A DNA stretch of 5,434 nt, taken from NCBI GenBank assembly GCA_019694835.1, contig JAIBBE010000113.1, forward strand, positions 1 through 5,434, in the 5' to 3' direction. This DNA comes from Fimbriimonadaceae bacterium. GTDB lineage: Bacteria > Armatimonadota > Fimbriimonadia > Fimbriimonadales > Fimbriimonadaceae. The first letter of the stretch is position 1. The number at the start of each line of letters is the position of its first letter. Below the pieces are notes generated by a model, which was given only the letters and a program-made list of their open reading frames with translations, was not told the DNA's origin and made no database searches. Positions 2,856-5,434 of the stretch are shown piece by piece. Position numbers and translations under genes: made by a program.

Positions 2856-2920
2856 GCCCAACGAGGTTGAGGGGCGCGCCGCCGATGGGCGTTAGCGTCC
2901 CTTCGAACGAAAGGTCATGC
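2856..2920 (-). other. attC site downstream of the OXA gene
   Basis: This is a 65-bp site directly after the beta-lactamase stop (2922-2924). On the cassette strand R' is GTTGGGC (2856-2862), a perfect GTTRRRY. L' is CCTCAAC and L'' is TTTCGTTCGAAGGG. R'' is GCATGAC (2914-2920), a degenerate RYYYAAC. The GTTcGAaGGGaCGC arm pairs with GCGCCCCTCAAC and leaves unpaired bases on one side, the usual sign of an attC. An internal CGCTAAC (2891-2897) could be read as an alternative R'', but that would leave an unusually short 42-bp site. Confidence 0.8.
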
Positions 2921-2921
2921 G

Positions 2922-3710
2922 TCATTGGATGATTCCTTTCGCATGTAGCGCATCTCGCGTGATCTTCTGGCGCAATGGCAACTCGCTTTGAGTTCTGACA
3001 TCGAGGTTCAAGGCGAAGAACCAGTTTCCTTTGGTAGTCTCGACATACCCGACATACCAGCCAATTTGCGGATATGTGCTGGTTGCCCATCCGGTCTTGG
3101 CTCGAATCGAGTATTGCGCGGTTTGCTCAACAAGCATGATGCGACGAAGGGTTTCGTAAGACGAGTTCCGGAAAGGCAGAGAACGGTGATATATCTGCTT
3201 GAGAAGAGTGACCTGCTCAGCCGCGCTCGCCTTCAACGAACCGTCCAACCAAAATCTGGTTTCTTCGAACGGCCTCTTGAGCTCGCCATATGCCACGGCC
3301 GACAAATAGCTCTCGTACTTTGTGGCGCCTACTTTCCGAGCAAGGTCCTGGAAACACCAAACGCATGAAGTTCTAAATGCGCTTTCTAACGTTTGATTGT
3401 GATTCCAGTCAGCGATTTCTCTCGAAATGCCATCCCACCTAAGTTCATCGCCGTCGGAGATCGCTCCTTCCTCAAGCGCAATGAGCGTGTTCAGTATCTT
3501 GAAAGTCGAAGCGACCGGAAATCTTTGTCTGGATCGTTGTTCATCGTGGACGAAGACGCCAGCCCCCTGTAGCGGGGCAATAATGATCGTGCCTTTAACG
3601 CCCACTTGGGAAAAGAGACCCGCAAGTTCCTGGTCTTCAGCTGACGCGATGACCGGCACCAACAGCAGGCAATGGAGGACGGACAAATGGAACCGGAACC
3701 TATGACGCAT
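2922..3710 (-). CDS. blaOXA: Class D (OXA-type) serine beta-lactamase
   Basis: This is a 262-aa protein of normal class D length, exported to the periplasm where it would hydrolyse beta-lactams by acylation of the active-site serine. A basic n-region (RHRFRF) and hydrophobic stretch end in a V-I-A-S-A cleavage site after A24. Family motifs are in order and correctly spaced: STFK at 68-71 (nucleophile S68, K71 the lysine that is carboxylated in the family), SCV at 115-117 (the SxV motif), YGE at 141-143 where most enzymes have YGN, FWLDG at 153-157 containing the conserved W154, and KTG at 205-207, followed by GWYVGYVE. The YGE variant is the one deviation. I cannot assign an OXA number or spectrum; it does not read as a close copy of OXA-2 or OXA-10 as remembered. 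The ATG (3708-3710) lies inside the attC R' core GTTATGC at the cassette boundary and has no Shine-Dalgarno. The frame remains open upstream through the repeat element to a TTG at 3780-3782. The signal peptide supports the ATG. Confidence 0.93.
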   Translation of the reverse strand: MRHRFRFHLSVLHCLLLVPVIASAEDQELAGLFSQVGVKGTIIIAPLQGAGVFVHDEQRSRQRFPVASTFKILNTLIALEEGAISDGDELRWDGISREIADWNHNQTLESAFRTSCVWCFQDLARKVGATKYESYLSAVAYGELKRPFEETRFWLDGSLKASAAEQVTLLKQIYHRSLPFRNSSYETLRRIMLVEQTAQYSIRAKTGWATSTYPQIGWYVGYVETTKGNWFFALNLDVRTQSELPLRQKITRDALHAKGIIQ

Positions 3711-3935
3711 AACGAGGCTGTAGGAAGATTCGGAAAGGGATGGCGCTACCCGAGTTTCGGGGGTCGGTTGGCCCTTCGCCAACTGGCGATCGGCCCGTAG
3801 AGTGCTTTCTACGAGGTCGACTTTTTTCGATCACCACGGGGAAGTCTCCGGAAGGGGTTTTTCTACAGATTCAACGTGGAAGTGTGCGGCCTGCGCGGCT
3901 TTTCGCGCAAGGTCCGCTCGACTGCAGGGTTAGAG
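3707..3935 (-). other. attC site downstream of the DUF2059 gene, split by the 159-bp element
   Basis: On the cassette strand the site begins with R''-like CTCTAAC (3929-3935), 9 bases after the DUF2059 stop. It continues through a stem GCGGaCCTtGCGCG, loop AAAAGC, CGCGCAGGCCGC with two unpaired bases, and reaches CCACGTT (3873-3875 is the GTT). The 159-bp element follows, then GTTATGC (3707-3713). Removing the element and one GTT restores CCACGTTATGC, a normal R' end, for a site of about 67 bp. The insertion point is at the recombination triplet itself. Confidence 0.75.
3714..3872. mobile_element. MITE-like 159-bp element, copy A
   Basis: The ends are imperfect inverted repeats: GAGGCTGTAGGAA at the left and, on the other strand from the right, GAATCTGTAGAAA. 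AAC flanks both sides on the plus strand (GTT on the cassette strand), consistent with a 3-bp target duplication. No transposase is encoded. Internal hairpins include CGTAGA/TCTACG, CGCCA/TGGCG and GGGTC/GGCCC. It differs from copy B at about nine positions by eye. It lies immediately upstream of the beta-lactamase start codon. Confidence 0.75.
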
Positions 3936-3944
3936 CGTATTCGC

Positions 3945-4424
3945 TCACATTCCATGCTTCTTAACCAGCACATTGAACTGCTCTTCCACTTTTGGAGAAA
4001 GGCGGCGTGCTTCATTGTTTAGAGCAGGAAATAGCTCAACAAGTACTTCATCTCTCTGCTGAATGAACTTGCGGCCAGCATCAGACCGAAAGAAAATCGC
4101 GATTTCGTGTGCCTCGGTTTCTGTTAGTCGACGCCGATAACTATGCGTCATCATGTCAAAAAATCCATTAGGCGCGCTGAACTCCGACAACACGAAGTCT
4201 CGTAGTTCGGCGGTTATCAACGCCCACTTGGCATTGTCGATGTTTGTATAGCGAGGCCGAATGCGGTTAATGAATGGGGTAAGTAAGGTATCGGCGGCTT
4301 TTTGAGACGGAAGCGTAGTCTCTACGATCTGTCGAACGTCTTCGCTAACCTGTGGGGACTGCGCATTTGCCGAAGCATAGAGCATCGCCAGTAACGGCAA
4401 CATCAAGAACGGCTTCCGCTTCAT
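3945..4424 (-). CDS. Exported DUF2059-type protein
   Basis: This is a 159-aa protein with a clear signal peptide: KRK n-region, hydrophobic FLMLPLLAMLYA, and a probable S-A-N-A cleavage after A21. The mature region is alpha-helical and fits DUF2059: two helices around residues 28-58, a conserved W67 region, and then the diagnostic block LTETEAHEIAIFFRSDAGRKF (100-120), corresponding to the 'L-x-x-x-E-L-x-x-L-x-x-F-Y-x-S-p-x-G-k-k' signature. These proteins are periplasmic or secreted; no enzymatic role is established to my knowledge. ATG at 4422-4424 is preceded by GGAG with 7 nt spacing, a good start; the open frame further upstream to a TTG is not needed. The gene starts 16 bases after the GTTATGC boundary of the preceding attC/element and ends 9 bases before its own attC. 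Confidence 0.8.
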   Translation of the reverse strand: MKRKPFLMLPLLAMLYASANAQSPQVSEDVRQIVETTLPSQKAADTLLTPFINRIRPRYTNIDNAKWALITAELRDFVLSEFSAPNGFFDMMTHSYRRRLTETEAHEIAIFFRSDAGRKFIQQRDEVLVELFPALNNEARRLSPKVEEQFNVLVKKHGM

Positions 4425-4439
4425 TGAGTTCTCCAAGAT

Positions 4440-4671
4440 GCATAACGAGGCTGTAGGAAAATTCGGAAAGGGATGGCGCTACCTGAGTTTCGGGGGTCGG
4501 TTGACCCTCCGCCAACTGGCGATCGGCCCGTAGAGTGCTTTCTACGAGGTCGACTTTCTTCGATCACCATGGGGAAGTCTCCGAAAGGGGTTTTTCTGCA
4601 GCTTCAACGTGGAGGCAACCGGCGCTGCGCGGCTTTATCGCGCAGCGTCCGTGTTGACCGAAAGGTTAGAG
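4440..4671 (-). other. attC site downstream of the 143-aa gene, split by the 159-bp element
   Basis: On the cassette strand CTCTAAC (4665-4671) begins 2 bases after the TAG of the 4674-5105 gene. A strong stem spans about 4614-4659: GGtCAACaCGGaCGCTGCGCG pairs with CGCGCAGCGCCGGTTGCC, leaving three unpaired bases on one arm. This is the classical attC signature and the clearest attC in the window. CACGTT follows, then the 159-bp element, then GTTATGC (4440-4446). Without the element the site would be about 70 bp and end in CACGTTATGC. Confidence 0.82.
4447..4605. mobile_element. MITE-like 159-bp element, copy B
   Basis: This is exactly the same length as copies A and C. The terminal inverted repeats are GAGGCTGTAGGAAAA (left) and, from the right on the other strand, GAAGCTGCAGAAAAA. 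Plus-strand AAC flanks each end. Three internal hairpins are perfect here: GGGTC/GACCC (4494-4507), CGCCA/TGGCG (4510-4521) and CGTAGA/TCTACG (4529-4546). No open frame resembling a transposase is present. Confidence 0.78.
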
Positions 4672-4673
4672 GT

Positions 4674-5105
4674 CTAGGGAGTGACTTCACGACGAATGAA
4701 AATCGGCGTAGGACGGCCCGTCACAAGAGCAACGACGATATACCCCTCCTTCGTTTGGTCGTTCGCCGCGCTATAACGGCAAAACGCTTGGGCCATGTTT
4801 CGGATGCATGAAAACTCCATGTTGGCTTGCCAGTCCGCGGGGAATAGTGATCGCGCTTCAGATTCGCTTAGCTGACGATACTCGCAGCCGACCTCGCAAC
4901 TGATGTTTTCCCAGTTTGCAGCGGTGGGCCTTTTACCTTCCATAACCCACTTACCGTCCACCTTTGAAAGGCGGTAGTAAAAGCCGTTGGGCGCGCGATT
5001 CTTGTCGAGAACCGCATAGGTGCCAACCGCAGCTTCCGGCAGTTCGCCCGCGGTGGCGAAAAGTGGGAGGGATGCTGCCGTGACAAGGACGAGTAGCTTC
5101 TTCAT
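4674..5105 (-). CDS. Exported hypothetical protein with four cysteines
   Basis: I do not recognise the family. The 143-aa product has a standard signal peptide (MKK, then hydrophobic LLVLVTAASLPLFA, cleavage probably near T-A-G at 18-20), so the mature protein of about 123 residues is periplasmic or secreted. Four cysteines in the mature part (C70, C74, C100, C109) could form two disulfides. The middle has a strand-turn-strand GFYYRLSKVDGKWVMEGKRP (41-60), and the C-terminus an alternating strand GYIVVALVTGRPTPIFIRR. The ATG at 5103-5105 has AAGGA 7 nt upstream, a good ribosome-binding site. The frame extends upstream into the repeat element, but that part looks non-coding. An attC follows 2 bases after the stop, so it is a complete cassette. 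Confidence 0.75.
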   Translation of the reverse strand: MKKLLVLVTAASLPLFATAGELPEAAVGTYAVLDKNRAPNGFYYRLSKVDGKWVMEGKRPTAANWENISCEVGCEYRQLSESEARSLFPADWQANMEFSCIRNMAQAFCRYSAANDQTKEGYIVVALVTGRPTPIFIRREVTP

Positions 5106-5135
5106 AGGCGATTCCTTTGGAATGAGACCCCTAAC

Positions 5136-5294
5136 GAGGCTGTAGGAAAATTCAGAAAGGGGTGGCGCTACCTGATTTTCGGGGGTCAGTTGACCCTTCC
5201 CCAAGTGGCGATCGGCCCGTGGAGGGCTTTCTACGAGGTCGACTTTCTTCGATCATCATGGGGAAATCTCCGAAAGGGGTTTTTCTACAGCTTC
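5136..5294. mobile_element. MITE-like 159-bp element, copy C
   Basis: This is the third 159-bp copy, differing from B at about twelve positions by eye. The ends are GAGGCTGTAGGAAAA and, from the right on the other strand, GAAGCTGTAGAAAAA. It is flanked by plus-strand AAC on both sides. On the cassette strand the distal flank is GTTAGGG (5129-5135) and the proximal flank CACGTT, as in the other copies. The GGGTC/GACCC hairpin is kept; CGTGGA/TCTACG keeps pairing through a wobble. It precedes the 143-aa gene. Confidence 0.75.
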
Positions 5295-5354
5295 AACGTG
5301 CGTCTACGGACTCCCCCAGTTTTGCAAGTTGAACGAATTGCTGGTCTGTTGGAC
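5295..5354 (-). other. Possible attC (or attI end) upstream of copy C
   Basis: On the cassette strand a perfect RYYYAAC core, GTCCAAC (5348-5354), is followed by AATTCGTTCAAC, a typical attC spacer, and by CACGTT at the junction with copy C. The stem between is weak (CCAGCAA with TTGC and CTGG). It may be a poorly structured attC of a cassette beyond the edge or part of an attI region. Confidence 0.4.
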
Positions 5355-5434
5355 AAGCCTGCAGGAATCTATCCGGCCTACTGGGGTGCCCGTCGGCACC
5401 GGCCCTGATGACATGCGCTCCGCGGAAGCCTCAT
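5355..5434 (-). other. Unresolved right edge
   Basis: Two minus-strand frames run through this edge without a start codon that can be trusted. One, open to the window end, stops at 5304-5306. The other stops at 5293-5295, within the end of copy C. Either could be the tail of a preceding cassette gene, but codon usage is not decisive. A perfect hairpin GGTGCC/GGCACC with loop CGTC lies at 5385-5400, without a following T-run. No integrase sequence was recognised. Confidence 0.35.

Follow-up and report, generated by a model that had tools for sequence, protein, structure and literature searches.

The window, which is the whole stretch of 5,434 nucleotides analysed here, contains an array of gene cassettes that is read on the minus strand. 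Three repeats of 159 bp lie in this array upstream of three cassette genes, in one common orientation. The features are listed below.

2856..2896, minus strand: uninterrupted attC-like site behind the beta-lactamase cassette, CTAAC..CGTTGGGC, recognised by eye
2922..3710, minus strand: gene for a class D beta-lactamase, with an OXA-198-like model as the best in NCBIfam
3711..3713, minus strand: right-hand GTT of copy A, start of GTTATGC
3714..3872, minus strand: candidate MITE (copy A) of 159 bp, lying immediately upstream of the beta-lactamase cassette gene
3873..3875, minus strand: left-hand GTT of copy A, in CACGTT
3873..3935, minus strand: attC left half beside copy A, with R'' TAAC at 3929-3932, hairpin and CACGTT
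3945..4424, minus strand: DUF2059 cassette gene
4444..4446, minus strand: right-hand GTT of copy B, in GTTATGC
4447..4605, minus strand: candidate MITE (copy B) of 159 bp, lying upstream of the gene for the DUF2059 protein
4606..4608, minus strand: left-hand GTT of copy B, in CACGTT
4606..4671, minus strand: attC left half beside copy B, with R'' TAAC at 4665-4668, hairpin and CACGTT; related sites are uninterrupted elsewhere
4674..5105, minus strand: cassette gene without a Pfam or NCBIfam match
5133..5135, minus strand: right-hand GTT of copy C, in GTTAGGG
5136..5294, minus strand: candidate MITE (copy C) of 159 bp, lying upstream of the cassette gene without a Pfam match
5295..5297, minus strand: left-hand GTT of copy C, in CACGTT

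The three repeats of the window and the sites that they interrupt

The three repeats have been described in an earlier note as copies of equal length that are 92-94% alike. The length of 159 bp is common to all three, while the range of identity is wider (89-94%), with 150 of 159 positions identical between copies A and B (94%), 142 between A and C (89%) and 147 between B and C (92%). On the cassette strand the element starts with GAAKCTGYAGAAAAAC and its opposite end, when inverted, reads GAGGCTGTAGGAARATTC; its 3' end is CTTCCTACAGCCTC or TTTCCTACAGCCTC. Inverted ends of the GARGCTGTAG type, a GTT on either side and a single orientation, as reported in the note, are seen at all three copies, and CAC precedes the left GTT at each of them. 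An 18-base end motif, allowing up to three mismatches, is matched three times in the window, against a mean of 0.02 in 200 shuffles. A full-length IS is not found within the 5,434 nucleotides.

The clear attC halves noted at copies A and B are confirmed by their left-half hairpins. When the bottom strand is folded, a structure of equal stability is formed by only two of 300 shuffles for the left half of copy A and by none of 300 for that of copy B. At the left flank of copy C this fold gives no hairpin, as 176 of 300 shuffles are equally stable.

The score of the class D beta-lactamase is below the cut-off of the OXA-198-like model and above the general class D cut-off, and its gene has its first ATG immediately after the right-hand GTT of copy A. 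Another class D-like frame, recognised by eye only, lies behind an IS remnant in another locus (L061). An attC-like site at 1510-1561 of the window, also found by eye, has GTCAGGC as its R' box in place of GTTRRRY. In the region 3600-5434, a promoter scan gives one promoter-like site versus 0.9 in shuffles, and a terminator scan gives one terminator-like site versus 2.3.

A query of 67 bases, the left half of the copy B attC, is matched in 79 of 300 genomes. For the count of empty sites 30 loci were listed, and duplicates and hits ending before base 50 of the query were dropped. The earlier note had proposed a search for uninterrupted versions of the same cassettes, and for the copy B attC type uninterrupted sites are found at 35 of the 42 places that were read, where the sequence goes on as CGTT followed by A or G without the element. 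One place is occupied by an IS with ends of the window type (in genome G493), and six are ambiguous. The empty places belong to related attC sites that differ in how closely they match the query; among those listed, the closest is 98% identical over 63 bases. Because 35 related attC sites are empty, the element is an insertion and no part of the copy B attC. The situation in which homologous sequences always carry the element, or in which it occurs mostly outside attC sites, is not encountered. The copy B attC type also suggests that the host of the window is Burkholderiales-like.

Full-length relatives and the target site

The note had also advised a search for a full-length IS with GARGCTGTAG ends and 3-bp duplications. 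An IS with these ends, flanked by GTT on either side, is present in other genomes, and its transposase is IS1182-like. One such IS of 1779 bp (locus L060, in the genome that also contains locus L016) has the ends of the window repeats and is flanked by a left attC half ending in TACGTT and by GTTGGGC on the right. It encodes a transposase of 508 residues (P0001) with the domains DUF772 and DDE_Tnp_1_6, which scores 266.2 bits against the IS1182 model NF033551, for which the curated cut-off is 270. The transposases of L196 (274.3 bits) and L195 (282.7 bits) exceed this cut-off, and both elements have GTT on both sides. The full-length relatives are 1.5-1.8 kb long, encode a DDE transposase and are placed between CGTT and GTT beside attC halves. 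In this size, in a single gene of about 500 amino acids and in ends of the kind GAGGCTGT.GAAAA they are like members of the IS1182 family, as is P0001 in combining DUF772 and DDE_Tnp_1_6. As judged from these sequences, the parent of the window repeats is IS1182-like, which corrects the earlier note.

Of 27 genomes searched, 14 have matches to P0001 at an E value of 0.001 or better, some of which are fragments and a few of which are distant IS1182-like proteins; many of these loci have window-type ends with CGTT and GTTR flanks. The transposase family is large, as 7999 of 8000 candidates scored reach 1e-30. In the plasmid collection, P0001 at 1e-60 matches two Pseudoalteromonas replicons and nothing else. 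These are large plasmids of Pseudoalteromonas sp. NC201 and P. piscicida 2515 with a related IS (L302 and L303); both ends are seen in L303, with CGTT and GTTA flanks, and the right end only in L302. The 1779-bp IS has no match in E. coli genomes.

For a phylogenetic tree, transposases were labelled attC-type when they score above 290 bits against P0001, regardless of the flanks, and L200 was left out for its length of less than 400 residues. Thirteen of the 21 attC-type transposases belong to elements whose recognised ends are both flanked by GTT, two (L216 and L289) have GTT and GTC as flanks, and for six (L071, L078, L087, L164, L178 and L302) a single end is visible in the locus. The 21 are separated from nine other IS1182-like transposases with a support of 100/100, in a tree in which four groups of rows are identical or near-copies. 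Seven of these nine have recognisable ends, which unlike those of the attC-type elements are GAGGCTGTGTGAAAAC-like, with flanks such as GGCC or GGTC and in no case GTT/GTT. The split marks off a distant group, but because the label follows similarity and long branches meet, it is partly circular and is not in itself proof that attC targeting arose once.

The triplet GTT recurs at the ends in scans that depend little on the flanks. In a nearly flank-free scan, in which three flanking bases are open and only the first is barred from being C, GTT or AAC lies outside 68 of 88 end motifs in the order of a Burkholderiales MAG (349 genomes) and outside 11 of 29 in the phylum of a Deferrisomatales MAG (198 genomes), where about 4% is expected. 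The right end with AAC outside is matched in 40 of 274 genomes of one class, some of these being by appearance chance matches in genes, and the reversed control pattern is matched in 18 genomes. When ends are paired without regard to their flanks, 49 of 58 strict pairs and 7 of 27 loose pairs are GTT/GTT; the pairing set includes loci that were fetched by a pattern requiring AAC, and the fractions 68/88 and 11/29 are less biased.

GTT is missing on one or both sides in 9 of the 58 strict and 20 of the 27 loose pairs, several of which are chance pairings. Among the nine strict ones, L027, L040 and L106 are chance pairings by appearance, and the other six (L120, L166, L216, L230, L244 and L289) are flanked by GTT on a single side. 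None of the nine repeats another triplet on both sides. The pairs in L216 (2401-4167) and L289 (2071-3837) are near-identical IS copies of one genome (G733). In both, the left flank is GTT and the right one GTC, which suggests that the element itself may bring along part of the triplet.

Among 55 GTT/GTT elements, the left flank ends in CGTT in 53, the right flank is GTT followed by A or G in all 55 and GTTRRRY in 28, and every left position beyond CGTT holds at most 0.7 bits. The left 60 bases fold with a mean of -12.3 kcal/mol versus -7.2 kcal/mol for mononucleotide shuffles, and 50 of 54 sites lie below their shuffles. Other CGTT[AG] sites of the same loci have a mean of -6.6 kcal/mol (p about 1e-9, with base composition unmatched). 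The target thus has little sequence outside CGTT/GTTAG, but a hairpin. Because few letters of the target are conserved and a hairpin is present at it, the transposase likely recognises the folded attC.

The 159-bp family elsewhere

A scan of GTDB contigs with both ends and a free middle gives 46 loci, of which four are taken as real relatives and the other 42 were set aside as chance matches by appearance. The four are from a Proteobacteria MAG (L016), a Candidatus Auribacterota MAG (L017), Terasakiispira papahanaumokuakeensis (L018) and a Deferrisomatales MAG (L019); their elements are 152-161 bp long, with window-type ends and GTT outside on both sides. In the Auribacterota locus, one array contains two full copies together with two truncated ends, and attC-like sequence is recognised there by eye. 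In a Terasakiispira array (L154, 137-2500) several such elements follow one another, and two of these retain remnants of a transposase. No match to a 165-bp stretch of copy A is found in the plasmid and phage collections, and three matches of a 17-base core word in IMG/VR were judged to be due to chance.

Eighteen MITEs of 152-219 bp were aligned, and the twelve with a common core were kept, namely the three of the window and nine others of 152-159 bp; two in L017 and those in L019, L069, L162 and L222 were left out. The twelve align nearly without gaps, with a mean column identity of 70%. A covariance model of the family has matches in 30 of 349 genomes, sibling MITEs counted. A profile without flanks gives 46 distinct hits in the collected loci, 19 of them partial and 27 with both ends. 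Of the latter, 21 have GTT on both sides, four on one side and two on neither, and none has AAC/AAC, which indicates that in the sampled loci the 159-bp family has a single, fixed orientation with respect to attC. In the 22 elements that retain transposase sequence, this sequence has the direction of the cassettes in 17 and the opposite one in five.

Fourteen of 25 elements shorter than 600 bp measure 156-159 bp, and four elements of 414-606 bp hold transposase remnants. Over 91 bp, a 134-bp MITE matches the end of a 1762-bp IS with 87% identity. The 159-bp core, compared with 18 elements longer than 1.4 kb, gives no alignment of more than 35 bp at 1e-3. For this reason no exact parent of the window MITEs is to be named among the 18 sampled full-length elements.

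Part of the window core also occurs in sibling MITEs that are about 140 bp long and have other ends, such as GGCTGTGTAAAAACGC (L267, L272, L273, L274, L275, L279, L284, L292, L294, L295 and L297); the clearest of them, L272 and L292, have GGCC on both sides. With RNA parameters, the plus strand of the window copies folds with about -70 kcal/mol and the minus strand with about -50 kcal/mol, and the bottom strand also folds better in several relatives. By eye, differences between the two ends turn into G-U pairs on the plus strand. The consensus fold comprises two short stems in addition to the terminal repeats. No conserved RNA structure is claimed for the core, as covariation is weak outside the terminal repeats, and a reading frame through the core was dropped after inspection by eye, a stop being present in L275.

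Origin of the repeats and likely recognition of attC

The 159-bp repeats are short, have terminal inverted repeats and no transposase gene, share their ends with an autonomous element, and occur in many copies at varied sites bounded by a short direct repeat, with GTT/GTT in 49 of 58 strict pairs; these are the marks of a MITE. We therefore consider it very probable that they are MITEs mobilised by the transposase of an IS lineage near IS1182 that inserts specifically into integron attC sites. The non-autonomous, attC-targeting MITE proposed in the earlier note is supported by the ends, the position, the full-length IS relatives and the empty sites.

Cassette boundaries likewise read GTT...GTT. 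The 159-bp sequence would accordingly be a gene-less cassette or an unusually long attC moved by the integrase, with GTT/GTT as the cassette boundary G/TT, and the constant orientation of the 159-bp family relative to attC and the strong fold of the bottom strand of the window copies (about -70 kcal/mol) are consistent with such an origin. It is nevertheless very unlikely, because the same ends at the same position bound elements of 1.5-1.8 kb with a DDE transposase, these ends are inverted repeats, and the copy B attC half is complete through CGTT, with related sites that lack the element. No R''/L''/L' architecture is seen by eye inside the element, nor an attC of its own (R''/L'' and L'/R' boxes) at its 3' end, and the weak covariation past the terminal repeats also speaks against this origin. 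The MITE and its IS1182-like parent may, on the other hand, be real while the preference is merely for a loose CGTTR, with copies piling up where insertion is harmless. That only CGTT/GTTAG is strongly conserved in the target and that copy C has no visible attC hairpin fit this explanation, which is unlikely, though less so than the former one. CGTT occurs 32 times on the minus strand of the window, the 54 target flanks fold well below both their shuffles and other CGTT[AG] sites (composition unmatched), and the orientation of the 159-bp family to attC is fixed. A loose preference differs from specific insertion into attC in the recognition step only, and the confidences in the two overlap.

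attC is already known as a target of IS1111 elements and group IIC introns. Group IIC-attC introns target attC and have a reverse transcriptase and a ribozyme, and their existence makes a shrunken intron conceivable. The relatives described here share the attC target with them and encode a DDE transposase, with neither a reverse transcriptase nor a ribozyme. IS1111 elements that target attC are on record, as stated in the available parts of two papers (PMC11187229, PMC12444791), and a shrunken IS1111-attC element is conceivable on the same ground. The IS1111-attC group is described in the available part of the former as having a DEDD transposase, a guide RNA (seekRNA) and subterminal repeats. 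The present elements resemble this group of the IS110/IS1111 family in inserting at a fixed attC position, and are alike in working but not members of it, as they have terminal repeats, GTT on both sides and a transposase with DUF772 and DDE_Tnp_1_6 that matches IS1182 and is not a DEDD transposase of the IS110/IS1111 type. The only Rfam match of the window is weak and lies at 519-544, with none at the 159-bp element. Derivation from an IS1111-attC element or a group IIC-attC intron is thus exceedingly improbable; the type of transposase refutes it, provided that the window MITEs do not stem from a different parent.

MITEs around class 1 integrons were reportedly described by Gillings in 2009. 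A 439-bp transposase-less MITE has been found with a class 1 integron (PMC3934969); the class 1 integron MITEs are also transposase-less inverted-repeat elements, but flank the integron, and insertion into attC is not described in the available part of this source. An IS1182-type element targeting attC is not found among the titles and opening lines of abstracts listed from the open-licence literature, and may be described elsewhere. Two papers that mention IS1182 (PMC9137128, PMC9908598) are, in the parts available, not on attC targeting, and no IS1182-type attC targeting is described in the available part of PMC8618304.

The element is placed directly behind the CGTT of the R' box on the cassette strand with one GTT added, perhaps by a 3-bp target duplication, and the IS1182-like transposase would act in trans. 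The element thus lies between two GTTs and separates the hairpin half of the attC from its RRRY part. According to the available part of PMC2727003, the sequences of attC sites are highly variable, and the integrase acts on their folded bottom strand to recombine them; the transposase would similarly recognise the attC hairpin, beyond sequence alone. Because the hairpin half and one GTT stay in place, the upstream attC may still be a substrate of the integron integrase; in that case the element could be moved together with the downstream cassette, as its leading portion. It is tentatively proposed, as a possibility that we hold with less than even confidence, that an IS1182-like DDE lineage has evolved to read the folded attC hairpin as integron integrases do and to insert between the crossover GTT and the remainder of R', sparing integron function, and that its elements and MITEs ride on cassettes.

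The same landing spot in several bacterial groups looks like that of a transposon lineage specialised on integrons. If the proposal is true, this DDE transposon lineage would be a second protein solution to the recognition of folded attC and a handle for testing structure-guided DNA transposition. Riding on cassettes through integron recombination would explain the presence of the elements in arrays of several bacterial groups. Environmental integron arrays would then carry a class of parasite that splits attC sites directly ahead of cassette genes, and attC sites split in this manner may escape annotation tools.
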